From Schaalia sp. JY-X169 (lineage in GTDB: Bacteria; Actinomycetota; Actinomycetes; Actinomycetales; Actinomycetaceae), in contig NZ_CP059675.1 in assembly GCF_014069575.1 (NCBI RefSeq), forward strand, positions 186,001 through 250,000: a stretch of DNA of 64,000 bases, written 5' to 3'. Under the pieces are notes generated by a model. It ran no database searches, was not told the DNA's origin, and worked only from the letters and a program-made list of their open reading frames with translations. A program made the translations under genes and the position numbers. Positions within the stretch are counted from its first letter, which is position 1. The number at the start of each line of letters is the position of its first letter. Below, in pieces: positions 36,044-49,055 of this stretch.

Positions 36044-36703
36044 GGTGGTGGTGAAGGACCAAGAAACTCCAGTTCCCTTGAAGATGGGTATGGCCACGAC
36101 GCCCCTCTAGGGGAGCCGCAGGTCCCCACGACTGACGGAGAAGCGCCTGAGACTGAGGTGGTTGGGGAGCAGAGCGATCTTGAGCCCCCGGCCTTCGAAT
36201 CGACAATCACCGAGAAGATTATCGTCATCGCACAGGAGAACCCGGGGATCACGGCTGATGAGATAGCTGAAGCGTTGGGGGTTGGTGCAGACGGCGGTCT
36301 CACGCTAGTGCAGGAAGATGGCTTACTTTCTGCGACAGTCGTGTTTCAAAGTGCGCCAACGCCTGACCAGGTCGATGCGCTTGAAGCAATTGCTCGTGTT
36401 CGCAGGGTCCTTGCAATCGAACCGATCGCGATGGTTCTGGTCGCACCATCGCAGCTGGATGCTGTTCGGACCGTGCCAGGGGTTGCCTCAGTAGACGTCA
36501 ATCTGGCTCCGCAATCTGCGCATATGGAGCGTGAACTCAGTGAGGCGGAAGTAGAGGAGCTACTCCAGGAAGTGGGGCAGCTTCAGGCAGAGGTGCCCCA
36601 CATGGTGGGCCGAGTGGGCGGATCGCAGACACCAGCTCTGTGTCGCACAGTTCCTGCTGTCGCGAACGCTCCCCTCAGAGTCAGTCAAGCGCGTCAGAGC
36701 TAG
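36044..36703 (+). pseudogene. N-terminal remnant of a secreted S8 (subtilisin-like) protease
   Basis: Open reading continues in the pullulanase frame after its stop, with an ATG-type start only inside at 36158. The text (Gly/Ser/Pro/Glu-rich linker, then ITADEIAEALGV and a VVFQSAPTPDQVDALEAI prodomain-like part) has no signal peptide. It ends CRTVPAVANAPLRVSQARQS, which matches the segment just before the catalytic Asp of large actinobacterial subtilases. The next bases, read in another frame, give GVDGTGQ, the usual start of the catalytic core, and then homology jumps ahead. It is therefore the front of a broken gene rather than a stand-alone protein. Confidence 0.65.
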
Positions 36704-38006
36704 GGGGTTGATGGGACCGGGCAGGGTCCTCAGAGATGGTACTTCCCCGTGGTTCAATGCTGGCGCAGACATTATCGTTGACGACATCTATTGGTCCAAT
36801 GAACTGAACTTTCAGCAAGGACCGGTTTCCCAGGCAATTGAGAGCGTCAAAGCGCGGGGAGTGACCTACTTTTCGAGCTCCGGCAACAATAACGGGGTGA
36901 AGCGGTCACCCACCTCCCAGCCAGGCATTACCGGCTATCCGATTGGGCGACACCAGAGCAACGCATTTGTTGGGACTTCCTGTCCGGAGTGGTTGGTTCT
37001 GCCTCAGGGAACAAGTCGCGGTGGTGTCGACTGTCTAGATTTCTCTCCCAATTGGATGGGCCAGCCACTCGGTAAATACACCATGGGGGCGCAGCTGCCA
37101 TCCTCAATCGCGCAGGTGATGCACTGGGCTGAGCCAGCAAATGGTCTGAAGACCAACCTACAACTGCAAATGTATGGGACCAGGTCTGTCACAGGATCCG
37201 GTGGTGTAGTGAGCCAAGAGAGGTGCTTAGGGGCCGCAAGCAGTTCTGATGGCGTTGGGCTTCCAGTGCACTACGCCCAATGGGACTGGGGTCGGGACGC
37301 CACTTGCAATCCTTCACGGTCGGTTGATTTTGTGGTGGTTCGCGATATCTCACGACCCGGTTACGGGTCTCCAACCGTGCAGATAACCCCGTTTGCAGCC
37401 GATACCAATACGCTTGCATGGGACAGAGAGTTCTACCGAACCGAGGGCAACAACACGATTCAGGGCAGTCAGTACGGTCACAATGGCGACGGAAGCGCGG
37501 CGTCGGTTGCGGCGGCGCCGTGGACGGCGCCAACAGTGGTGCAGTCTTACTCGTCTTTGGGGGCCAACCAGACCCGGTTCGGACCGTCCTCGCGAAATGG
37601 CGTTGCTACGACTCTTTCGGAACCGGTCAACCCAGAGGTCCCTACAATCATGGGACTTGACGGGATAGTGAACAGTTTCTTTGGCAGCCCAATCCAAACT
37701 GGGGCGAACACGGGGCTCTACGCTTTCTACGGGACGTCTGCTGCCTCTCCAACCGCGGCTGCAGTGGCAGCCCTCGGCCTGGAGAAGAACCCAACTATGA
37801 GACACGATCAGGTTGTGTCCCTAATGCGTCGAAGCGCCAATGCGCAGGTTGCGAACCCATACTCGGTTGTCCCCATTCCGCATAGCAGCACCTGTCTCCT
37901 TAACACCGTCACGCGCTCACATAGTTGGTGGCACGGGGGCCATGAGCCCAAAGGTGGAGCAGCAATTGAGATCTGCCCTGAAGGGGACTCAGATCAAGAG
38001 GGTTAG
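36704..38006 (+). pseudogene. Central remnant of the S8 protease, catalytic Asp and His deleted
   Basis: A 432-codon stretch (ATG-type start at 36708) carries the second half of a subtilase catalytic domain. NAGADIIVDDIYW and GVTYFSSSGNNNG (oxyanion-hole Asn) are near the start. The serine motif YGTSAASPTAAAVAAL is near residue 350. The segment with the catalytic Asp (IxDS-type) and His (HGT-type), normally ~60-120 residues before NAGAD, is absent. A large in-gene deletion next to a frame change at about 36703-36740 explains this. No protease activity is expected. The frame is lost again at about 37912, where a cell-wall-binding repeat continues in frame 1. Confidence 0.7.
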
Positions 38007-38298
38007 TGGATCGGATCGCTACGGTACTTCAACTGCAGTCCTCAAAGAGTTCTTTTCAGGCCAGAAGATTCGTAGGGCGTTTGTAGCCACCGGTAAGGAC
38101 TTCCCGGATGCCCTCTCTGCGGCGGTGCCTGCCGGATCGTTGACTAAGCGCCTAGTTCTTTCCAACGGCGAATGCATTCCAAAGCTGGTGGTGTCGTCTT
38201 GGATCGAGGGGGTGGGAGCCAGAGTGTCCAATGTCTATTTGGTTGGGGGGCCCGCTGTGTTGGGACAGTCGGTCCAGAGCCTGACGCAATGCAGTTGA
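37912..38298 (+). pseudogene. C-terminal cell-wall-binding (CWB2-type) remnant of the same gene
   Basis: In frame 1 the sequence reads IVGGTGAMSPKVEQQL, then RVSGSDRYGTSTAVL, FVATGKDFPDALSAAVPAG and VYLVGGPAVLGQSV. These are the hallmarks of the cell wall binding repeat 2 family (PF04122) that anchors exported proteins. It overlaps the end of the central fragment in a different frame, so it is the displaced tail of the broken subtilase. The last repeat ends in a normal-looking stop at 38296-38298. Confidence 0.7.
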
Positions 38299-38854
38299 CG
38301 GTTTTGAGTTGATGGCGACTTGACCCTTGACCCACACGGTTGTGCGCAGGCTCAACACAGCGGTGGATGGCATTGCGGGGGCCCCGTAACCCCGTACTTT
38401 GCGTCACTGGGCTCCGCACCCCCTGCATGTTCGTGAAATGTATACGTGGGGAACAAAGGAGTGCTTGGGGTATGCACCCCAGACGATTATTTCGCCCCCA
38501 CGTATACATTTCGTGATGTGCGGGCGCTGGCGGCTGGGGTGGCTGCGCTGGTGCGGGCGCTGGCGGCCGCAAAGGCGGTTGGGGTGGTGATTTAGTGACG
38601 CCGGACCTATGCGCCTGTCGGCGCTATGCCGCTCGAGGCGGCTGAAATTGGAGCCCGGGGCATTGGGCCCGACGTCAATGTCCATTGTAGTGCACGCCAC
38701 CAATCATGTGAAACGGAATCGGGGCTTCACTCATCCTGAGTGTTGCTATGGACGGGGCGGGTTGCAACAATCCTAAATGTCGGAAGCCAATGAGACACTT
38801 TCCACTACCGGACGCTTGTGCCAAACCTGGACAGCGTAATGAGAGGATTGGCGT
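38299..38854. other. Non-coding junction before the restriction-modification unit
   Basis: 556 bp without a convincing gene. It holds the large inverted repeat at 38435-38512, a 17-bp direct repeat (GTGCGGGCGCTGGCGGC) at 38518-38534 and 38551-38567 with a 33-bp period, and an Ala/Val/Leu-rich open stretch ending in TAG at about 38593 that may be a coding remnant. The last ~150 bp should contain the methyltransferase promoter. No integrase, tRNA or target-site duplication is seen. Confidence 0.6.
38435..38512. repeat. Large inverted repeat with nested hairpin (cruciform-capable)
   Basis: Perfect 17-bp arms GAAATGTATACGTGGGG (38435-38451) and its complement (38496-38512) flank 44 bp. Inside, TGGGGT-ATGC-ACCCCA (38466-38481) forms a second perfect hairpin. 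The arms have near-matches extending outward (CGT/CAC). No T-run follows, so an ordinary Rho-independent terminator is unlikely. Confidence 0.8.
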
Positions 38855-39850
38855 ATGACCCAGAAGGAAGAACTCAGAGTATTGGAGCTTTGCGCCGGTG
38901 CCGGTGGTCAATCATCTGGACTTGAACAGGCGGGATTTCAGCACGAGCTAGCTATTGAGATCGACAAAGATGCCGCAGCGACTCTCCGCCTTAACCGGCC
39001 AGCATGGAATGTCCTTGAGGGGGATATCCGTGAATTTGACGGTAGGCCCTACAGGGGAATCGACCTAGTGGCAGGCGGAGTTCCCTGTCCCCCCTTCAGT
39101 GTCGCCGGAAAGCAGCTGGGGGCTGACGATGAACGCGACCTATTCCCCGAGGCGCTTCGCATTGTTCGGGAAGCGCAGCCCAGTGCAGTGATGCTTGAGA
39201 ATGTGAAGGGGTTGGCGACAGCCCGATTCGCGACCTATCGAGCCTCGATCCTCGAGCAGTTGGAAGAAGCGGGATACCACGCAGAATGGCAGCTGCTGTA
39301 CTCAAGCGAGTATGGGGTTCCGCAGTTGCGCCCGCGATTCATCCTTGTAGCCATGAAGAGAAGTCACTTTAGGAGCTTCAATTGGCCCCAACCAGTGGGG
39401 ACGCCACCTTCTGTAGGCCCAGTTCTGTTCGATCTCATGGCCGCCAGAGGGTGGGAAGGTGCAGAAAGATGGGCGCGCGGGGCAAACAGCATCGCGCCGA
39501 CACTAGTTGGTGGATCCAAGAAACATGGAGGTGCTGACTTGGGGCCAACCCGGGCCAAAGAGGCGTGGTTGAAACTCGGCGTCGATGGCAAGGGGATTGC
39601 AGATGAGGCACCCGGTCCGGAGCTGCCAAAAGAACACATCCCAAGGCTGACCAATCAGATGGCCGCAAGAATCCAGGGTTTCGCCCCCGACTGGCTGTTC
39701 TCGGGGCGCAAGACTTCGGTGTACAGACAGATTGGCAATGCTTTCCCTGCTCCAACGGCAAAAGCCGTGGGTGTGAGTATTGCTCGCGCACTCGGCGTGG
39801 AGCAAACTTCGGAGATTTCTCGGGTCCCAATTCTGAGAGCAGCTAGTTAG
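38855..39850 (+). CDS. DNA (cytosine-5-)-methyltransferase of a NaeI-type restriction-modification system
   Basis: A 331-aa modification enzyme that should protect the host from the neighbouring endonuclease by making 5-methylcytosine. Motif I is ELCAGAGGQSSGL, motif IV GGVPCPPFS holds the catalytic Cys78, motif VI is LENVKG and motif VIII is VPQLRPRFILV. The C-terminal motif X has RQIGNAFPAPTAKAVG; the variable target-recognition region lies between ~170 and 270. ATG 38855 has a GAGAGGA Shine-Dalgarno. Its stop overlaps the endonuclease stop by 3 bp on the opposite strand (tail-to-tail). By association with a NaeI homologue the target is probably GCCGGC; which cytosine is methylated is not visible. 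Base composition is a little AT-richer than the pyr genes, consistent with horizontal arrival. Confidence 0.93.
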   Translation: MTQKEELRVLELCAGAGGQSSGLEQAGFQHELAIEIDKDAAATLRLNRPAWNVLEGDIREFDGRPYRGIDLVAGGVPCPPFSVAGKQLGADDERDLFPEALRIVREAQPSAVMLENVKGLATARFATYRASILEQLEEAGYHAEWQLLYSSEYGVPQLRPRFILVAMKRSHFRSFNWPQPVGTPPSVGPVLFDLMAARGWEGAERWARGANSIAPTLVGGSKKHGGADLGPTRAKEAWLKLGVDGKGIADEAPGPELPKEHIPRLTNQMAARIQGFAPDWLFSGRKTSVYRQIGNAFPAPTAKAVGVSIARALGVEQTSEISRVPILRAAS

Positions 39851-41283
39851 AGGAGCATCGGCGCATCGACCGCGGTCGTTTCCCCAGGAAGGCAGATACG
39901 CCATCTCCTGCCATCCGCACTTGGATATGCCAGGTCTTCTGTCGGTTTAACGCGGACACTGACAATCTCGCCGCGCTCCGGTACTGCGGTACCCAAAGCC
40001 GCGGCAAACTGGGTTTGGTCCTTGTAGTCGCCACTCAGAACAAGTATTCCTTCCTTCCGGAGCGTGCTCCGAGATCCACCATTTTCGCGGATTCGTTTCA
40101 TATAGTCCTTCTGCTGAGCGACTGTTGCGATGACTGTCCGTGAAATGCGTCTTCCAGTGGCGGATCTTAGTAACTCATCCACTCTCTTCTGGCCGCTCGG
40201 ACGGGACATAATCCACTCGACTTCAGGTTCCGGCAGGGTGAGCAAAGTGTTTGGTTGCATCGGCGCATTCTGGTGTAGCCACCGGACCCGTTTCTTGCCC
40301 TCCGCGTTCAGGCCCGTCTTCTGATCTCGATTTCTGCTTGCTCTCCGATTCTCTTCGGATACGCGGACCAACCCCATGCTCCATTGGGATTTCATATCGT
40401 CGGCAACAGTTACAAGAACGATCTGGTCAAAGCTCTCTGTTGGGAGCATCCACTGGCTAGTGTGTGAGAACTTGCAGTCAACCTCATGTGTCGCGATTGA
40501 GTAATCCAGAACGGATCCGTCGTTGAACTGAAACTCGCGCTGCAGATTAATCTCGATGATGGATCCGAAATGTGCCTTCTCAGTCTTAGAGAGATGATCC
40601 AGGCGATAACGACCGGTGTGTTGTCCATCGTAAAGCTGGTCAAAGGTGTCCCGAAACACGCGTGCGGCTCGAGTCCCATCTGGATCGAGAAAGCTAAGCA
40701 CTTCGAATACCTCGTCGAGCGCCGCATCTCGCGAGGCAGGGTCATCATGATCTGATTCTGAATCGACGTAGCGTTCCAGGGAATCCGTCTGCCGGCTCAG
40801 TAAGTCAACCGAGAGCTCTAGGGGCATTTCAGGTTCGGCTGTCGTTTTGCTGTTCGCACCGGGTTCGCGGCAAAGCGACTGCAAGCGTGCGACGGCTGGC
40901 CTGTCCGCCGGCGCCCACTCTATTGATCCGAGGTCGGAAGGTGGCATCCACCGGATGGCAGAATGCTCGGTTAGGAGTGGCTCTCCATTCACCAGCTGGC
41001 AGTAGAACGTCGTCAGCGTGACGATGCCGAAGTCGTACTCATGTGTCGTGACTTCAAGCTGGTCGTTCACCTGAGCATCACACTGGAGTTCTTCCTGTAG
41101 TTCACGCCTGAGCGCCTCTTGAGGGCTTTCTCCGACCTCAATCTTGCCGCCGGGGAACTCCCACATGCCTGGGAGGGACATACGACTTGATCGCCTGGCG
41201 CAAAGGATCAGGCCATCACGAATTATGACCGCCCCAACCACATTTATGCGCCGTTTCTCTGTCTGCTGTCCATGCTCACTCAT
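39847..41283 (-). CDS. Nudix hydrolase / NaeI-type restriction endonuclease fusion protein
   Basis: A 478-aa two-domain protein. Residues ~11-137 are a MutT/NudG-like Nudix domain: the box runs from G46 with E52, R60-E61 and E64-E65, but Gln67 replaces the usual Gly. The APADRPAVARL tail resembles the CTP/5-methyl-dCTP-type pyrophosphatase NudG. After a ~50-residue acidic linker, residues ~188-478 match NaeI (Type IIE, two-site enzyme). Catalytic Glu244, Asp260, Asp269 and Lys271 keep the exact 16-9-2 spacing of NaeI Glu70/Asp86/Asp95/Lys97. LYDG with Leu217 matches NaeI Leu43, the ligase/topoisomerase-like position. ATG 41283 is chosen because the domain begins there; no Shine-Dalgarno, but TAGTCT sits 7 nt upstream (leaderless). 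Two GCCGGC sites lie in its promoter region. A longer start at 41331 adds 16 residues. Confidence 0.88.
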   Translation of the reverse strand: MSEHGQQTEKRRINVVGAVIIRDGLILCARRSSRMSLPGMWEFPGGKIEVGESPQEALRRELQEELQCDAQVNDQLEVTTHEYDFGIVTLTTFYCQLVNGEPLLTEHSAIRWMPPSDLGSIEWAPADRPAVARLQSLCREPGANSKTTAEPEMPLELSVDLLSRQTDSLERYVDSESDHDDPASRDAALDEVFEVLSFLDPDGTRAARVFRDTFDQLYDGQHTGRYRLDHLSKTEKAHFGSIIEINLQREFQFNDGSVLDYSIATHEVDCKFSHTSQWMLPTESFDQIVLVTVADDMKSQWSMGLVRVSEENRRASRNRDQKTGLNAEGKKRVRWLHQNAPMQPNTLLTLPEPEVEWIMSRPSGQKRVDELLRSATGRRISRTVIATVAQQKDYMKRIRENGGSRSTLRKEGILVLSGDYKDQTQFAAALGTAVPERGEIVSVRVKPTEDLAYPSADGRRWRICLPGETTAVDAPMLL

Positions 41284-41407
41284 CAAACAAAGACTAATCG
41301 TGCGGGCCGGCAACTGCAGCACCAACACCATCTTGGCTGCCGGCTCTGGTCTTCTTGGTACGGGTGATCCTGCTGGGGGCGGTGGGCGACGACGGGCGGC
41401 TTTGCCG

Positions 41408-42553
41408 CTAGTCGGCGACCGGCCCCAGCACCATATTCGCCCAAGCCCCGTGCAGCGACTCCTGGTCTGAGGGCTGAAAAAGGCCAGCCAAGACATCGCG
41501 GTACAAGCGTGACAGCTCATTCTTGTCGTAATACGAAGACCCCCCACACGCACGAACGCACTGCTCAACCACCCGAAGGGACGCCTCAGACGCAGCATTC
41601 TTCACGGCCGACAGGCGCGGCAGCCACCCCAGATTCGGTTCCGCATCCGATTCCACCAGCGCCGCCATTTCGCGGATCTGCGGACCGACCGCGTTCATGA
41701 GAAGCGCGGCCTCTGCCAGACGCCAGCGGATCGCCGGGTCATTGGAATACGTGGTTTGGTTCATGACTGAACGCCGCTTCTTGACATGCTCAACCGCCAC
41801 CTCTATTGCGCGTTCACCAACCCCCGCATACGTCGCGGCCAACAAGATCTCGAAGTTAGCGAAGATACCAAGCACGACAGGGTCAAGGTTCGGTCCGGGG
41901 TCAACCCGGCCCAGTACCTGTTCGGCCTTGACCCTCGCCCCCTCCAGCAGCGTGGTGTTCGACTGAGTTCCGCGCATTCCTAACACATACCAGTCATCCT
42001 TGATAGTCACCCCGCCATCCTCCCGCCGTAGGATTGCAAACACCGACTTGGGGGCATCACTGCTGTCGCTGTCCGCGCCAAAAGTCAGCAACCGTGTCCA
42101 CGCCGGTGACAACGAAGTGAACACTTTCGTTCCGGTGAATGTGTAGCCCCCGTCCTCGGTGGGCTTCGCATCGGTGATCGACCCGAAGAGGACGAGGTCG
42201 TTCCCGGGTTCCGAAATCCCAAAGCCGAAAAGGTGCCCATCTGCCGCATCCCGCAGAATCTGCTCCCCTTCGCTACGTCCCGCATCAACCAGCATGCGCC
42301 CCAACCCGACGATGATCTGGTGCATATTGATGCCGAGGGCGGTGCCGGGCGCCGCCTTCGCAAGCCTGGTCTGTTCGGCTGCGATTTCGCTGAGAGTGAG
42401 GCCGCTCCCACCGAATTCCTCTGGGACAAACGCCGCGTAGTACCCCGCATTGCGCAACTGGTCGTAGTCCTCTTCAGGGAAGATGTTTTCGGCGTCATAG
42501 CTGGCCGCACGCGAATGGATTTCGCCCAGTAGTTCGTCGGAAAGGAAGGCCAT
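41408..42553 (-). CDS. Acyl-CoA dehydrogenase family protein
   Basis: A 381-aa flavoprotein of the acyl-CoA dehydrogenase fold: the N-terminal helical domain (YYAAFVPEEFGGSGLTLSE), the beta domain (FGISEPGND, GTKVFTSLSP), and the C-terminal helical domain (CVRACGGSSYYDKNELSRLYRDVLAG). The C-terminal pattern resembles the flavin monooxygenase/desulfurisation branch (DszC-like) as much as true fatty-acid dehydrogenases, so the substrate is uncertain. ATG 42553 has a good AGGAGG Shine-Dalgarno. It runs in the same direction as, and 124 bp before, the restriction gene but probably predates that insertion. Confidence 0.85.
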   Translation of the reverse strand: MAFLSDELLGEIHSRAASYDAENIFPEEDYDQLRNAGYYAAFVPEEFGGSGLTLSEIAAEQTRLAKAAPGTALGINMHQIIVGLGRMLVDAGRSEGEQILRDAADGHLFGFGISEPGNDLVLFGSITDAKPTEDGGYTFTGTKVFTSLSPAWTRLLTFGADSDSSDAPKSVFAILRREDGGVTIKDDWYVLGMRGTQSNTTLLEGARVKAEQVLGRVDPGPNLDPVVLGIFANFEILLAATYAGVGERAIEVAVEHVKKRRSVMNQTTYSNDPAIRWRLAEAALLMNAVGPQIREMAALVESDAEPNLGWLPRLSAVKNAASEASLRVVEQCVRACGGSSYYDKNELSRLYRDVLAGLFQPSDQESLHGAWANMVLGPVAD

Positions 42554-42661
42554 TTTTCCTCCTGTTGAGCAGGTTCAAGTTGGACTGTCTCTTCAAGACT
42601 AGCGACTAATGCGTTCCAGACGGTTCGTGACCATAGTCGTGGAAGTCGGTAGTCTGGGGGA

Positions 42662-43369
42662 ATGTTCGAGATCCCATCAGATTTACCCCTGAAACTCAGT
42701 TCGCTTGCCTGGCTGCTTGGCCATTGGCAAGGGTGGGGCACGGTCGCCGCCCCCGGTACGATGCCGCCCGCCGAGACCGACACCAAAGACAACAGTGCCA
42801 CTCAACCGGCAGAGGAGGAGACGGACTCCAGGTTTGACGCGGTGCTGCAAGACCTTGAAGCCGCAGTTGTTGGCGAACAGATGCGCATGACCATTCGTAC
42901 GTACGAGGGCGAGCTGGCGGACGAGTTCGATCCCCTATGGACAGCGGCAGAGGGGCTTGACAACATACAACCCGGAGCCCTGATTTCGGAGGAAACGACC
43001 TACTGGTCAGTGGACACACCGCTTGCGGTTGTTCCTGCGGGACCGGATGAGGGACGCGAACTACGGGTCGTCGGCTCAGGGACACGCGGTTTCGCAGTGC
43101 TCTGGGCAGGTGTGGTGATGGGCCCACGCATCCAGTTGGCTTCAGACGCAGTGGTGCGAGCCCCTCGCGCGGACGCCCTCGACCACTTCAGCCGTATGTT
43201 CGGACTGGTGGGTGGTGAGTTGATGTGGGCGTCGGAAGCAATGCCTGCGGGCGGCGAGTACGAGGTTGAGATCACGGGTCGACTTCAGCGCACGGCTTCG
43301 GCTGATGAGGTGGCTGCCAAGACGTCCCGCGCGTCGCGCCATGAGGACGGAGACCCTTCCGATGGCTGA
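42662..43369 (+). CDS. Nitrobindin/FABP-family heme-binding protein (THAP4-like)
   Basis: A 235-aa beta-barrel protein. The GxWxGxG signature is LLGHWQGWGT near residue 20, followed by barrel strands such as ISEETTYWSV and LRVVGSGTRGFAVLWAGVV. In mycobacteria and animals these proteins bind ferric heme and isomerise peroxynitrite. Between the first strand and the rest there is an extra acidic stretch of about 35 residues (PPAETDTKDNSATQPAEEETD) not usual in short family members. TAGTCT 6 nt before the ATG suggests a leaderless start. The stop overlaps the start of the YgfZ gene by 8 bp, so the two are coupled. Confidence 0.82.
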   Translation: MFEIPSDLPLKLSSLAWLLGHWQGWGTVAAPGTMPPAETDTKDNSATQPAEEETDSRFDAVLQDLEAAVVGEQMRMTIRTYEGELADEFDPLWTAAEGLDNIQPGALISEETTYWSVDTPLAVVPAGPDEGRELRVVGSGTRGFAVLWAGVVMGPRIQLASDAVVRAPRADALDHFSRMFGLVGGELMWASEAMPAGGEYEVEITGRLQRTASADEVAAKTSRASRHEDGDPSDG

Positions 43370-44564
43370 TCCGAGGGCGCTTCCCGGGCCACTGTCATCC
43401 GCGGGCGCAATTGTGGCCGACAGTGGGCCCTCGCTTGGCCTTCCACTGCACTACGGCTGGCCCGCCGATGAGCAGGACCGCTTTGAACGGGGACTGGGGT
43501 TTACCTATCTGGGCGAGATCGGCGTGGTGACTGTTGCGGGACCTGACAGGCTCTCATGGTTGACGACCCTGTCGTCGCAGATTCTCTCGGACCTGCAGCC
43601 GGGCCAGTCGCGGGAAGTTCTGCTCCTTGACCCCCAGGGTCGGGTCACCTTCCAATTTGGCGCCCTCGACGACGGCACAACGACGTGGTTGCTGACTGAA
43701 CGCCAGTTCTCTGAAGACCTGGCCCAGTTCTTGAAGTCGATGCAGTTTATGCTCCGTGTTGAGGTCGAGGACGAAAGCACGGGTTTCCGCGGCGTCCTCA
43801 CCAGTAGCCAGTCTGAGGAGGCCGCACGGGTCGCCTCATCGGCGCTGGCAGACTTGGGGGGCAGAATGTGGACTGATCCGTGGCCAGCGGTCACCCCGGG
43901 CGGAGCGCGTTACTTCACCGGCACGCATCCCGGAGAGCAGGCGCAGTTCCGTGTCTATGTGTGCCCCGCAAGCACAGCGGACGAATTTGTTGGCCTACTG
44001 CTCAGCGGGGCAGTCTCGGACGAGGGCGGAACATTGCCGCCCCTGAGCCCCGTCGGATACCTGGCCGCCGAGGCAACCAGGGTTGCCGCTTGGAGGCCAC
44101 TTCGGAGCAGTGAGGTTGATGAGCGGACAATGCCCTCAGAGTTGGACTGGTTACGCACTGCCGTTCACCTTGAGAAGGGGTGCTACTGCGGGCAGGAATC
44201 AGTTGCGCGGATCGTCAACCTTGGCAAGCCACCGCGTCGGCTGGTTTTCCTGCAGCTTGATGGCTCTGGGGAGGCGCTCCCCGAGCCCGGCGCAGCTGTT
44301 GAGTACGGCGGTCGCCAGGTTGGCGTCATCACATCGGTTGCCAGGCATTGGGAGATGGGGCCGATCGCCCTCGCCCTCGTGAAACGCAACCTGGATCCAA
44401 CTGCAGCCGTGATGGTGGGTGGCGTTGATGCCGTCCAAGAGTTGATTGTTCCGGTGGAAGGACGCTCGGACCATTCTCCTGCCGAACGGCCGGGGGCCGG
44501 GCTTAAGAAGCTCGATGCAGGGAAACGAGACATCAGGACCCGCGGGCCCGGAGCCGGTGGGTGA
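43362..44564 (+). CDS. ygfZ: Folate-binding protein YgfZ (tRNA/Fe-S repair related)
   Basis: A 400-aa aminomethyltransferase-like protein that supports iron-sulphur enzymes and tRNA modification. The diagnostic KGCYCGQE motif is at about residue 272, and the N-terminal glycine-cleavage-T-like domain contains VTVAGPDRLSWLTTLSSQILSDL. ATG 43362 overlaps the preceding stop; ATG 43341 or the longer in-frame reading from 43266 is possible but lacks support. It is linked to the nitrobindin-like gene as in many actinobacteria. Confidence 0.88.
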   Translation: MADPRALPGPLSSAGAIVADSGPSLGLPLHYGWPADEQDRFERGLGFTYLGEIGVVTVAGPDRLSWLTTLSSQILSDLQPGQSREVLLLDPQGRVTFQFGALDDGTTTWLLTERQFSEDLAQFLKSMQFMLRVEVEDESTGFRGVLTSSQSEEAARVASSALADLGGRMWTDPWPAVTPGGARYFTGTHPGEQAQFRVYVCPASTADEFVGLLLSGAVSDEGGTLPPLSPVGYLAAEATRVAAWRPLRSSEVDERTMPSELDWLRTAVHLEKGCYCGQESVARIVNLGKPPRRLVFLQLDGSGEALPEPGAAVEYGGRQVGVITSVARHWEMGPIALALVKRNLDPTAAVMVGGVDAVQELIVPVEGRSDHSPAERPGAGLKKLDAGKRDIRTRGPGAGG

Positions 44565-44577
44565 GAGTTCCCTACCG

Positions 44578-44602
44578 TTACCATTTTGAGACCGAATGGT
44601 AA
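44578..44602. promoter_or_regulatory. Inverted repeat TTACCATT-N9-AATGGTAA
   Basis: Perfect 8-bp arms between the ygfZ stop and the response-regulator start, 31 bp before the TAGACT -10-like element. It may be an autoregulatory site of the following two-component system or a weak ygfZ terminator; there is no T-run. Confidence 0.45.
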
Positions 44603-44644
44603 AGGGAAGTGCAAGAGATGCTAAAAGAGGGTTAGACTTACTCT

Positions 44645-45316
44645 ATGACTACAGTACTTCTGATTGAAGACGATCCGGCCATTGCAGAGCCCCTCGCACG
44701 TGCGTTTGGGAGAGAGAACTACGACGTTCGTTCACACGGAACCGCTCGTGGCGGGCTCTCGGAAGTTGAAGAGGCGGACCTGATTGTCCTTGACCTCGGC
44801 CTTCCTGACATGGATGGTCTGGATGTCGCTCGTGAGGTCCGCAGTCGGGGCCTGGATACTCCAATCTTGATTCTTACAGCGAGGACGGATGAGGCCGACA
44901 TGGTCATCGGCCTTGATGCCGGAGCTGACGACTATGTAACCAAGCCATTCCGACTGGCGGAGCTGCTCGCGCGTGTTCGTGCGCTACTGCGACGTGGGGC
45001 AGGGGAAGGTGCAGAGACTGAGCTGGTTGCCCAGGACGTGCGAATCGACATTCCAGCCCACCGCGCCTACGTTGGTGAAAGGGAACTCTCACTGACTGCA
45101 AGGGAATTTGAGCTCCTGCGGGTCCTTGTCAAAGAGGCCGGCAACATGGTTCCGCGTGAAGACCTGATGCGGGATGTCTGGGCTCAGGACCCACAGGGGT
45201 CAACAAAAACACTGGACATGCATATCTCTTGGCTGCGCCGGAAACTGGGCGACAACGTCACTGAGCCGCACTACATTACAACGGTGCGCGGCCTAGGATT
45301 CCGCTTCGAACAGTAA
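44645..45316 (+). CDS. Response regulator, OmpR/PhoB family
   Basis: A 223-aa two-component transcription factor. The receiver domain has the acidic pair EDDPA, phospho-acceptor Asp50 in VLDLGLPDMDG, and TART and KPF for the conserved Thr and Lys. The winged-helix effector has LTAREFELLRVLVK, REDLMRDVW and THMISWLRRKL-type segments ending TVRGLGFRFE. ATG 44645 is preceded by TAGACT at 44633-44638 with no close Shine-Dalgarno, so a leaderless transcript is likely. The kinase follows after 19 bp. Its targets are not evident. Confidence 0.94.
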   Translation: MTTVLLIEDDPAIAEPLARAFGRENYDVRSHGTARGGLSEVEEADLIVLDLGLPDMDGLDVAREVRSRGLDTPILILTARTDEADMVIGLDAGADDYVTKPFRLAELLARVRALLRRGAGEGAETELVAQDVRIDIPAHRAYVGERELSLTAREFELLRVLVKEAGNMVPREDLMRDVWAQDPQGSTKTLDMHISWLRRKLGDNVTEPHYITTVRGLGFRFEQ

Positions 45317-45335
45317 GCACTGAGGTAGGTCTGCT

Positions 45336-46661
45336 ATGCGACGCAGGGCCACAAGAATGATCATGACGGCGGTTGTCGCCGTCATTTTCGTGCTGGGCGT
45401 TCCCGCAGGGATCATGGCGGGTGTGATGATGTGGAACAGCAATCAGACGGCTTTGGACGTTCGCGCCCAGACCGTAGCGCGCGCTGTTGACCGTCGTTTG
45501 GCTGATGATAACTTTGTCCCGCAAAGCATCGTTGCAGCCTGGTCTCGCCCCGTTGATGGGCAGGGAGGCCCCGCGTACACGGTGGTGACGCTACCGGGCA
45601 GGTACAAGATCGTCTCAGGTGAACCCCGAGTTGGTCCGACGTTAGAGACTTACTACACCAGTTCCCAGGGTGTTCGTGTTGAGATGCAAATCAGCGCAAT
45701 TAAGGCAGTCCGGGATGTTGTGATTGTTGAAGCGTTCGTTCTGCTGGGTGTCATAGCCTCTCTTGGTTTGGCCTGGTATTTGGCGAATGTCATGGCCCGG
45801 CGACTTTCTGCCCCCCTGATCTACCTTGCTGCGCAGGCCGAGCAAATTGGTTCAGGTCAGGTGCGTGCCCAGGTGCGGCCGTCGGGAATTGAGGAGATCG
45901 ACCTCGTCCAAGAAGAGCTGGTCCGTACAGGTGAGAAAATGGCGCGGCGTCTCGCTGCCGAACGTCAACGATCAGCGGACGCGTCCCACCAACTTCGTAC
46001 CCCTCTCACTGCCTTGTCGATGAGACTGGAAGAGATCCAAATGATCTCTGCGGAAGAAGAAGTGCGAGATGAGGCCGAGGCCGGTCTTGCGCAGGTGGAG
46101 CGCCTCACCAGCGTCGTCAATGAGTTGCTTGATAGTAGCCGTCGGGTTGCAAGCAACACGGAAGTGGTCCAGCTGCTCGAAGTTTTCAATACTGAACGTG
46201 AAGAGTGGGAACCCCGATTTGTGGCGCAGGGTCGCAACTTGGTGTTTGTGGATGAGGCCGCCCTGCTGGCACTGGCAGAAGATGGGAAGCTCAGTCAGAT
46301 TTTGGCGATCCTCATTGAAAACTCCCTCAACTACGGGGCTGGAACCACAACGGTGAAGACCCGGAAGGCTAGTTCGTCGAGGGCGGTGCTGGTTGATGTT
46401 TCTGACGAGGGCGAGGGGATTTCAGATGCGGATGCATCTGAGATTTTCGACATGGGCTTTTCAGGTCATGGGTCTTCGGGGATTGGCTTGGCGCTTGCGA
46501 AAGACTTGGCACAGTCAATGGGTGCACGCCTTGAGTTATCTGGCAGACGCCCCCCGGTCTTCACACTCTCACTTTCCGCAATCCCCACTAATTTCGACCC
46601 CAACCTTGTCATGCCTGTTGCGCCAATCGTTTCAGTGAGCCGTCGTACTCGAAAGTTCTAG
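45336..46661 (+). CDS. Sensor histidine kinase, HAMP/HisKA type
   Basis: Membrane kinase of 441 aa paired with the preceding regulator. Two transmembrane helices (~9-31 and ~127-150) bracket a ~95-residue extracytoplasmic domain. A HAMP segment follows, then HisKA with His218 in ADASHQLRTPLTAL. The HATPase_c domain has N-box ILIENSLNYG, G1 DEGEGIS and G2 GSSGIGLALA. Start ATG 45336 has GAGGTAGG upstream. The signal is unknown; position beside GalE and the surface-polymer genes hints at envelope sensing but no more. Confidence 0.92.
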   Translation: MRRRATRMIMTAVVAVIFVLGVPAGIMAGVMMWNSNQTALDVRAQTVARAVDRRLADDNFVPQSIVAAWSRPVDGQGGPAYTVVTLPGRYKIVSGEPRVGPTLETYYTSSQGVRVEMQISAIKAVRDVVIVEAFVLLGVIASLGLAWYLANVMARRLSAPLIYLAAQAEQIGSGQVRAQVRPSGIEEIDLVQEELVRTGEKMARRLAAERQRSADASHQLRTPLTALSMRLEEIQMISAEEEVRDEAEAGLAQVERLTSVVNELLDSSRRVASNTEVVQLLEVFNTEREEWEPRFVAQGRNLVFVDEAALLALAEDGKLSQILAILIENSLNYGAGTTTVKTRKASSSRAVLVDVSDEGEGISDADASEIFDMGFSGHGSSGIGLALAKDLAQSMGARLELSGRRPPVFTLSLSAIPTNFDPNLVMPVAPIVSVSRRTRKF

Positions 46662-46704
46662 CAACCCAGATAGATTCGCCAACACGGAGGGATAGGATAA
46701 AACC

Positions 46705-47697
46705 ATGAGCGTATTGGTTACAGGAGGCGCTGGATATATCGGCGCGCACGTTGTCCGACTACTACAAGAACGCGGCGAAGAAGTCATCGTTGTTGATGAT
46801 CTTTCGACCGGCTCAGCTTCCCGAATCGGGGATGCAGAACTGGTCGAGGTCGACTTGGCAACGGATGAGGCCTACCGCATCCTTACAGACACAATGATCG
46901 ACAAGGACGTTGACGCGGTCATCCACTTTGCCGCCAAGAAGCAGGTTGGCGAATCTGTGCAGCGTCCGGCCACCTACTACCACCAGAACGTTGGCGGCCT
47001 CGCAAACCTGTTGCGTGCCATGTATGACGCGGGCGTCAAAGAGATGATCTTCTCCTCATCCGCTGCGGTCTACGGACTGCCGGACGTGGACATGGTTCCC
47101 GAGGATGTGGAGAAGCACCCCATCAACCCCTACGGTGAAACCAAGTTGATCGGCGAGTGGATGATGCGTGACTGTGGCGTGGCTTGGGGTCTGAAGAGTG
47201 TCGCTCTTCGCTACTTCAATGCCGCTGGCACAGGTTGGACGGATCTTGAGGATCCAGCTGCGCTGAACCTGGTGCCGATCATTCTCAATCGCCTACACGC
47301 GGGCAAGACCCCCGTTGTTTTCGGTGACGACTACGATACGGCTGACGGCACGTGCGTCCGCGACTACATTCATGTCATGGACTTGGCGAATGCTCACCTG
47401 CTTGCACTCGATGCGCTTCGCAACGGCAACGCCAAGCATGGCGCATACAACGTGGGCACCGGCACCGGGAGCTCAGTGTTTGAGGTCGTTGACGGCATCA
47501 GGGAGATTTCTGGCTGGGACTTCCCCATCGAAGTTTCTGCCCGCCGTGAGGGCGACCCCGGATACCTTGTCGCGGATTCTTCACGGATTAAGGAAGACAT
47601 GGGCTTCCAGGCCCAGTTCGGTCTGGCTGATATTCTGCAGTCCGCCTGGGATGCAAACCAGCTTGGGTCGAAGAAGGTTCAGGTTCCCACTAAGTAA
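46705..47697 (+). CDS. galE: UDP-glucose 4-epimerase
   Basis: A 330-aa short-chain dehydrogenase/reductase that interconverts UDP-glucose and UDP-galactose, and possibly the N-acetyl forms. The NAD-binding GGAGYIGAHV, the SSAAVYG serine, the catalytic Tyr/Lys in NPYGETKLIGE and RYFNAAGT are complete. It supplies activated galactose for the polymer genes that follow. ATG 46705 is 43 bp after the kinase stop, with GGAGGGATAGG as Shine-Dalgarno. It converges with the LCP gene. Confidence 0.94.
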   Translation: MSVLVTGGAGYIGAHVVRLLQERGEEVIVVDDLSTGSASRIGDAELVEVDLATDEAYRILTDTMIDKDVDAVIHFAAKKQVGESVQRPATYYHQNVGGLANLLRAMYDAGVKEMIFSSSAAVYGLPDVDMVPEDVEKHPINPYGETKLIGEWMMRDCGVAWGLKSVALRYFNAAGTGWTDLEDPAALNLVPIILNRLHAGKTPVVFGDDYDTADGTCVRDYIHVMDLANAHLLALDALRNGNAKHGAYNVGTGTGSSVFEVVDGIREISGWDFPIEVSARREGDPGYLVADSSRIKEDMGFQAQFGLADILQSAWDANQLGSKKVQVPTK

Positions 47698-47704
47698 TTG
47701 CGGG

Positions 47705-47730
47705 CGTCCTCCTCCTACTGGGGGAGGACG
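47705..47730. terminator. Bidirectional hairpin between galE and the LCP gene
   Basis: CGTCCTCCTCC-TACT-GGGGGAGGACG, 10 of 11 pairs. It overlaps the LCP stop codon on the minus strand and starts 8 bp after the galE stop. Confidence 0.7.
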
Positions 47731-49055
47731 AAATCTTCCTGTGTCAACGTTCCGTTCTTCATGTTTTCGAAGAAGGTCGGAACAGCGGCCTCATCCCACA
47801 GCATCACCGCTCCGGCCTCGTTCATTGCGTCCACTGATGCAATGGGCGGCATGCCGACCAAGCCATCTGCAGTGGCTTTACGCATCGCCATCATCAGTGT
47901 GGCGACGTTGAAGATGTTGGTGTCCTGCCCAACGGTCAGCGCATTGGCTGCGGCCTCGGACAGCCGGTACTGCTTGACCGGGTTGACCAGCACAGCGGGG
48001 CTGAGTGCTTCAGAAACTACCGCATTCATGACCTGACGTTGGCGCTGCTGACGGCCAACGTCCCCGGTTGGGTCCGAGTAGCGCATACGGCTGAACGCAA
48101 GCGCTTCCTCGCCGTTCGCGCGGTGACACCCGGCCGTCCACTGCATTCCTGAGAATTCGTCGGAAACATCCGCATCCCAACACAGTTCCACGCTTCCGAG
48201 GGCGTCGATTGTGTCTGTGACTCCAACCATTCCGATCTGCACGTAGTGGTCGACGTGGAGGCCGGTTGCTTCTTCTACGGTCTCGATGAGCAGAGATGGG
48301 CCCCCATAGGCGAAGGCAGCGTTGAGCTTGTTCATCCCGTACCCGGGGATATTGACGTAGGAATCACGCGGAAGTGACACCATGGACGCCTGTCCGTTGG
48401 GCGCGCGGTGCACCAGGATCGTGGAGTCTGATCGTTGTCCCTCGGTTGGGTCGTCCGGATTCCACCCGTCACGGGTGTCCGAACCCGCGAACAGGTATGT
48501 GGTACCGCGTGTGTTCGGAGCAGTGGAGGTGGCATCGACCCTGTGCATACTTGCGTTGGTGTGCCAAATCAGCCATGTCGGCCACGCAATGATGACGACG
48601 AGGACGAGGGTGAGCACCCCCATCACTTTGCGACGTCTGGATCCCCGGCGGCGCCTCTTTGGGGTGCTGCCTTTGGGGGCTGACTGCGGCTGGGACGCCC
48701 TCGTCCCTGCAGGTGCGTGCCCTGATGGACCGCGATGGTAAGGCTGACTCTGTGGAGAAGCCGCAGGTTGCTCGGTGAAGGGACTCTTCTTGCGTGCCGG
48801 GGGAATTGCTGCCGGCATAGGTGCGGCAACCAGAGTCGGCTCGATAGGAGGGGGCGGTTGCGCACTTTGACTGACCGGTGGAAAGACAGATTGTCTTTGA
48901 GGGGGCCGGCGTGATGCACCTTTGGGAGATATTGACGGTGGAGGCTGCGATGCTGAGGCGTCTGCTGGTGGAATAGCCGGAGCCGCGGGGGCCGAGGCAG
49001 ATTTTGGTCGCGCGCGACCTTGCCCGGGTGTGAATGAAGGAGGATTTCCTGTCAT
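47715..49055 (-). CDS. LytR-CpsA-Psr (LCP) family glycopolymer ligase, second copy
   Basis: A 446-aa membrane protein expected to transfer polyprenyl-linked glycopolymer (teichoic acid-like or polysaccharide) onto peptidoglycan. A ~130-residue Pro/Ala/Ser/Gln-rich cytoplasmic tail precedes a single transmembrane helix (~145-165). The LCP domain follows with SDTRDGWN, RSDSTILVHR, VSLPRDSYVNIPGYG, KLNAAFAYGG and LAFSRMRYSDPTGDVGRQQRQRQV. The key Arg/Asp residues for pyrophosphate and metal binding are kept. It follows the first LCP gene by 18 bp in one operon with the DUF2304 and GT2 genes. Confidence 0.93.
   Translation of the reverse strand: MTGNPPSFTPGQGRARPKSASAPAAPAIPPADASASQPPPSISPKGASRRPPQRQSVFPPVSQSAQPPPPIEPTLVAAPMPAAIPPARKKSPFTEQPAASPQSQPYHRGPSGHAPAGTRASQPQSAPKGSTPKRRRRGSRRRKVMGVLTLVLVVIIAWPTWLIWHTNASMHRVDATSTAPNTRGTTYLFAGSDTRDGWNPDDPTEGQRSDSTILVHRAPNGQASMVSLPRDSYVNIPGYGMNKLNAAFAYGGPSLLIETVEEATGLHVDHYVQIGMVGVTDTIDALGSVELCWDADVSDEFSGMQWTAGCHRANGEEALAFSRMRYSDPTGDVGRQQRQRQVMNAVVSEALSPAVLVNPVKQYRLSEAAANALTVGQDTNIFNVATLMMAMRKATADGLVGMPPIASVDAMNEAGAVMLWDEAAVPTFFENMKNGTLTQEDFVLPQ

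Follow-up and report, generated by a model that had tools for sequence, protein, structure and literature searches.

Restriction systems depend on methyltransferases alone placing 5-methylcytosine (5mC) in DNA. Here we consider a gene that joins a Nudix hydrolase domain to a NaeI-type restriction endonuclease in a 64,000-nucleotide stretch of Schaalia sp. JY-X169 (contig NZ_CP059675.1, positions 186,001 to 250,000; hereafter the window, with positions counted from its first letter), and compare it with its closest described counterparts. On the nuclease side these are NaeI, a type IIE enzyme (PDB 1ev7), and its family, in which an adjoining C5-methyltransferase is common, and on the Nudix side they are Escherichia coli NudG (Orf135) and mycobacterial MutT2. 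In PMC5158307, 5-methyl-dCTP tops the NudG substrate table (1.3e6 per M per s vs 4.7e4 for CTP), in agreement with the preference for modified dCTP given in an earlier reading of the window made without database searches (hereafter the sequence-only reading), and MutT2 is reported in PMC10742078 to be most active on 5-methyl-dCTP and also to digest dCTP. A further point of comparison is SauUSI, a type IV enzyme with an SRA-type reader, which according to PMC7913695 cuts DNA with 5mC or 5-hydroxymethylcytosine (5hmC) in the context S-5mC-NGS. The open-access literature that we searched, in the portions of text available, gives no account of a Nudix-NaeI fusion or of a Nudix-SauUSI link; PADLOC already lists the Nudix family concerned as a candidate (PDC-S07).

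We lean, at somewhat better than even, towards a reading in which the window gene encodes a NaeI-type enzyme carrying, as its N-terminal third, a NudG-like domain gained through gene insertion, with a likely activity of the 5-methyl-dCTP type and a fusion that is neutral or mildly useful. The gene and its parts are as follows.

39847..41283, minus strand: Nudix-NaeI fusion gene, 478 amino acids plus stop (frame translation, Pfam).
40876..41253, minus strand: Nudix domain, residues 11-136 (PF00293, 1.9e-19; PADLOC PDC-S07, 5.9e-52; nearest solved chain 5x1x, 6.2e-42).
41080..41148, minus strand: Nudix box, residues 46-68, with Gln67 replacing Gly (translation; conservation in relatives).
40732..40875, minus strand: linker, residues 137-184, its second half acidic, with an internal ATG (Met153) at 40825-40827 (translation).
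39850..40731, minus strand: NaeI-type endonuclease, residues 185-478, with Leu217, Glu244, Asp260, Asp269 and Lys271 (PF09126, 6.5e-107; 1ev7, 6e-72).

The Nudix domain and the whole endonuclease lie in a single uninterrupted frame of 478 codons with zero internal stops, and the Pfam matches to NUDIX and NaeI confirm the one-frame join that had been described earlier; the linker that separates the two domains is acidic in its second half. The frame is intact and both domains, judged by alignment, keep their catalytic residues; the gene cannot be called decaying. That the fusion occurs in one genome only might point to a sequencing or assembly artefact joining two genes. Such an artefact is very unlikely, given that the host assembly consists of one contig with 2,382,167 bases (98% complete), that the junction is away from the contig ends and that the codons run without stop or frame change. 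The host genome contains one NaeI match and eight Nudix domains.

Likeness to NaeI extends over the full length of the endonuclease part. The match to PF09126, a search that the sequence-only reading had proposed, is near-complete (residues 192-469, profile positions 3-285 of 288, 357.5 bits vs a cut-off of 25). Residue 185 aligns to residue 11 of the 1ev7 chain by phmmer, the alignment is gap-free up to and through the active site, and identity is 48% (alignment A2). Leu217, Glu244, Asp260, Asp269 and Lys271 correspond to NaeI Leu43, E70, D86, D95 and K97, which we take to be functional residues of that enzyme. The active-site Glu/Asp/Asp/Lys spacing of 16/9/2 is present in the fusion protein, and the four columns are unchanged across six diverse homologs (alignment A1); the NaeI-like spacing reported earlier for these residues and Leu217 is thus borne out. 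Absent from that earlier account is the partner of the endonuclease, a cognate-type C5-cytosine methyltransferase gene that adjoins the fusion gene convergently, their ends overlapping by 4 bases. A neighboring C5-methyltransferase is shared with the NaeI family, being found in the flanks of 76 of 80 NaeI loci, which are the best among 128 confirmed matches in named genomes. The window locus differs in two respects: a Vsr gene neighbors NaeI in 47 of the 80 loci whereas none was seen beside the fusion, and the window protein has an N-terminal Nudix domain.

Six loci found in 200 family genomes, three found in 396 phylum genomes and two on plasmids bring the comparison to 91 other NaeI loci, the flanks of the family and phylum loci extending only about 1.5 kb. 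None of the 91 has an in-frame Nudix-NaeI gene, and a search of viral contigs gave no relative. The survey of homologs that had been suggested therefore leaves the fusion unique to one genome among those searched: it is a one-genome NaeI variant with a traceable origin. Strong Nudix matches occur in the flanks of two of the 80 loci, L026, where the gene row reads Nudix, Vsr, NaeI, methyltransferase, and L023, where a Nudix gene and a SauUSI-like gene lie near NaeI and a methyltransferase was not found; six more of the 80 have weak Nudix matches unlike the window's.

The origin of the join can be followed in sister species. Among five further genomes from the genus, two encode a Nudix protein 66% identical to the window's, and the remaining three give weak matches only. 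In the two (loci L313 and L314) the Nudix gene stands alone between acyl-CoA dehydrogenase and pullulanase genes, the same place as in the window, and neither NaeI nor methyltransferase is found at that locus. The neighboring features on which the comparison relies are listed here.

38855..39850, plus strand: C5-cytosine DNA methyltransferase, in convergent orientation to the fusion gene (PF00145, 5.2e-67).
38592..38698, no strand: 107-base intergenic block, the other edge of the putative restriction-modification insertion (87% identity to the block behind the sister stand-alone Nudix gene).
41284..41407, minus strand: spacer between the acyl-CoA dehydrogenase and fusion genes (sequence read directly).
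41408..42553, minus strand: acyl-CoA dehydrogenase, syntenic anchor for the sister-species comparison (profile match and synteny).

Window positions 41421-48607 align along their whole length with L313, where the Nudix gene comes next, its frame continuing directly from the end of the acyl-CoA dehydrogenase gene. In the sister, the 107-base block comes immediately after the Nudix gene; in the window it is found on the far side of the restriction-modification genes, and only in the window do NaeI and the methyltransferase stand between Nudix and block. The C-terminus of the sister Nudix proteins falls near residue 143 in window numbering. Because the sister species carry a stand-alone Nudix gene and no NaeI at this locus, insertion of the NaeI/methyltransferase pair accounts for the join. 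Most likely, on this synteny, the pair inserted between the resident Nudix gene and the conserved intergenic block, and with loss of the Nudix stop codon the endonuclease would have become its in-frame tail. We regard the joining of the two genes as probably accidental, and either tolerated or mildly useful. The block is more conserved than the neighboring genes (about 70-73%), and it has no Rfam match that would mark an RNA element. As insertion scars we considered direct repeats, of which 38560-41450 contains only one of 21 bases and one of 15 bases, neither flanking the insert. Another insert separates the block from the pullulanase gene; its broken-looking subtilase-like pieces and cell-wall-binding domain (window 36158-38298) occupy overlapping frames, are absent there in L313 and look like a decaying gene.

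Since the insertion explains the join, it weakens the proposal of the sequence-only reading that this is a purpose-built restriction-plus-sanitising protein. A bifunctional defence protein selected both for cutting foreign DNA and for destroying 5-methyl-dCTP from degraded DNA or phage is unlikely. It would suit the intact active sites of both domains and the Nudix genes near NaeI in L026 and L023, for which the probability of two or more is 0.0004 to 0.026 if, by our estimate, 0.03-0.25 are expected. However, the Nudix gene of L023 is explained by the SauUSI-like gene held there, the fusion is confined to one genome and to none of the 91 other NaeI loci, and in two species of the genus the Nudix gene at the locus stands alone. 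By our own estimate, moreover, about 0.7 chance Nudix neighbors of NaeI are expected (eight Nudix genes in the host genome, about 90 NaeI loci and an assumed 2,100 or so genes), so that one such neighbor is likely and would be unsurprising.

It is doubtful, too, that the Nudix part merely supplies NaeI with a promoter and start while being idle or housekeeping itself, with NaeI perhaps also made from Met153. The insertion origin fits such a role, and the ATG of Met153, about ten codons past the old Nudix end, might be an older NaeI start. By eye, however, no clear Shine-Dalgarno sequence lies upstream of it, and Met153 may not be the old start since its distance to the DPDG motif, 47 residues, exceeds the approximately 21-28 seen in six relatives. 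An idle domain also sits poorly with the retained catalytic residues and with amino-acid-changing differences (pN) far below silent ones (pS). Compared with the L313 copy, the Nudix domain has pN 0.25 and pS 0.75, and the neighboring dehydrogenase pN 0.12 and pS 0.73. The domain has thus been constrained, although, to the detriment of our own reading, the silent sites are saturated and give no separate view of constraint since the fusion. With respect to regulation, GCCGGC, given earlier as the NaeI target, occurs in the host only slightly less often than expected (82 observed vs 106 expected in 224 kb), and four of the 26 sites in the window (40791, 40907, 41306 and 41339) fall within 560 bases at the fusion gene start, two of them 23 and 56 bases upstream. 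A methylation-controlled promoter was rejected as a family feature: the 300 bases upstream of NaeI hold 21 GCCGGC sites over the 80 loci (0.88 per kb vs 0.99 overall), and no locus has two or more. A promoter scan at the fusion start gave nothing exceeding chance.

The Nudix domain (PF00293 match at residues 14-133) has, by the criterion GX5EX7REUXEEXGU, the residues G46, E52, R60, E61, E64 and E65 together with the Gly-to-Gln67 substitution, all as first listed. The six conserved residues are identical in 96 of 96 aligned homologs. At position 67, by contrast, Gly is found in just 36 of these relatives and in 4 of 30 distinct SauUSI-adjacent copies; on these alignments Gln67 is therefore a habit of the subfamily. 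With 60 of the 96 relatives lacking Gly there, the substitution is rejected as a sign of decay, and the suggestion that it would inactivate the domain finds no support. The assignment as NudG-like is supported: the NCBIfam NudG-type model PRK10546 matches (1.9e-28), though its 98.9 bits miss the 156-bit equivalog cut-off, and the MutT model TIGR00586 likewise scores below its own (79.6 vs 97.9 bits). Identity to E. coli NudG is 39%, and the PDB matches include 5zrc (MutT2) and 2rrk (CTP pyrophosphohydrolase). Like NudG and MutT2, the window Nudix has an Asp in the column of MutT Asn119, a residue to which we assume a functional role; it differs from them in its sub-cut-off scores, in Gln67 and in the fusion to NaeI. 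Given the shared Asp and the taste of NudG and MutT2 for 5-methyl-dCTP, the domain is expected, by analogy, to be a cytosine-nucleotide hydrolase. The same Asp (Asp127) was considered as a mark of a defence group and rejected, being present in 95 of the 96 rows. The PDC-S07 match was rejected as proof of defence, as the model also matches the sister stand-alone genes and ordinary genes without defence neighbors.

At the level of the subfamily, the Nudix is linked to proteins that read or repair 5mC, and here the tie to 5mC biology drawn by the sequence-only reading holds. A Nudix protein of Staphylococcus aureus, 54% identical to the window's, is encoded directly before a SauUSI-like gene whose product has PLD and helicase domains, and a full-length counterpart in L023 (PLD, helicase, DUF3427) has the SauUSI architecture and matches the PADLOC type IV model at 4e-179. 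When SauUSI-like loci were gathered by helicase family alone, giving 26 full-type loci (L280-L305), the PDC-S07 Nudix adjoined the SauUSI-like gene in 24, in varying orientation, or in 18 of 20 without the six loci known beforehand. The two misses are L292, where a stop breaks the frame, and L305, where a contig end cuts one side. Among plasmid SauUSI-like genes, H46-H50 are five loci already counted as Nudix carriers, and no Nudix gene lies beside H51 (Fusobacterium) or H52 (Neotabrizicola). As controls, HsdR loci had a Nudix gene in 0 of 40 cases (40 of 42 matches), and a looser PLD-helicase set in 1 of 10, weakly (10 of 20 matches). A MazG-like pyrophosphohydrolase, a second nucleotide hydrolase in its cluster, follows the Nudix and SauUSI-like genes on a Lactiplantibacillus plasmid (L005:8319-8639).

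A second partner is Vsr. Among 60 PDC-S07 loci, taken from 83 other matches in 396 genomes, 13 encode Nudix-Vsr fusions (L149, L153, L155, L157, L164, L167, L171-L176 and L178), to which L004:4992-5981 of Collinsella, annotated merely as Vsr, can be added; six have a SauUSI-like neighbor, and 38 have none of the sought partners, not all of these having been looked at further. The Nudix-Vsr fusions resemble the window protein in coupling this subfamily to a nuclease connected with 5mC, but they have their own single origin (94/95 support) and are not the source of the window domain. McrBC appears once: the Nudix gene of L140, whose product is the next closest outside the genus (57%), directly follows genes for an AAA ATPase, McrC and a NucS-like nuclease. 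In the host genome itself, L221 (contig 79813-90682) is an McrBC locus in which a transposase (HTH, rve) lies between a truncated McrB-like gene (EVE domain) and McrC. At L156:3989-6367, in a bacterial genome, the neighbors of the Nudix gene are a thymidylate-synthase-like gene and one for an aGPT-pyrophosphorylase/ADDT (DNA base hypermodification, the latter of thymine). The genomic partners taken together bear on whether the Nudix might instead sense or deplete canonical deoxynucleoside triphosphates or some other nucleotide upon infection, an option raised earlier. Nudix enzymes accept many nucleotides, but the partners are mostly 5mC-linked, which general depletion would not predict, and we regard this option as highly unlikely.

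In a 96-row tree the window Nudix falls in a supported seven-row clade (99/96) with L140, four SauUSI neighbors, the S. aureus protein included, and L009, and in a ten-row clade (96/92) that adds L023, L026 and L156. When the sister genes are included, in a tree of 28 rows, they lie nearest to the window Nudix by path. As we read it, the tree does not require that the Nudix arrived with NaeI, and the synteny points to separate arrival. The window differs from the SauUSI loci in its nuclease, a modification-blocked type II fold, and in its host, since there is no SauUSI-like gene in the window neighborhood and no match in the host genome at E 1e-60.

We propose that the Nudix domain is still active, its most likely substrates being 5-substituted cytosine nucleotides such as 5-methyl-dCTP. 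In a host whose endonuclease is blind to sites with 5mC, it would prevent sites in foreign DNA from being masked by stray 5-methyl-dC, and in relatives with 5mC-cutting enzymes it would prevent the host genome from being marked foreign. Extending this, we raise as a tentative possibility, short of even, that the NudG-like Nudix subfamily is a recurrent companion of proteins that read or repair 5-substituted cytosine (SauUSI-like enzymes, Vsr and, in single instances, McrBC and NaeI restriction-modification), guarding the methylation mark by destroying 5-methyl-dCTP or phage 5-hydroxymethyl-dCTP. Several observations weigh against these proposals. Both the Nudix substrate and its benefit to the host are inferred. 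The resident Nudix gene runs with acyl-CoA dehydrogenase instead of with defence genes, and it may therefore have begun with an ordinary role here; neither the Asp column nor the PDC-S07 match separates defence from ordinary copies; and this Nudix is near NaeI in only two of 80 loci. The 26 SauUSI-like loci all come from one order, and McrBC, which L140 alone has, was rejected as a general partner, as none of 29 McrC loci has a Nudix gene. Neighbors unrelated to 5mC also occur, namely an Eco57I-type methylase at L009 and a Schlafen-type helicase at L145, and adding the sister sequences to the tree leaves the window Nudix without a firm placement. Finally, four of the 13 Nudix-Vsr genomes have no C5-methyltransferase match; three of these (G207, G319 and G328) carry a SauUSI-like gene, in keeping with the known incompatibility between SauUSI-like enzymes and C5-methyltransferases.

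The wider link between this Nudix subfamily and 5mC deserves follow-up more than the fusion does. A dedicated hydrolase accompanying enzymes that cut at 5mC would offer a simple means of averting self-attack or of depriving phages of their protective bases, a role undescribed so far within the available text of the literature searched. If the companion role is true, only enzyme-placed 5mC would count as self or foreign, restriction would have a new layer of function in which the pool of modified nucleotides is controlled, and the window fusion would represent a natural, covalently joined form of the Nudix companion. With both activities on one chain, the window protein would make the idea testable with a single purified protein.

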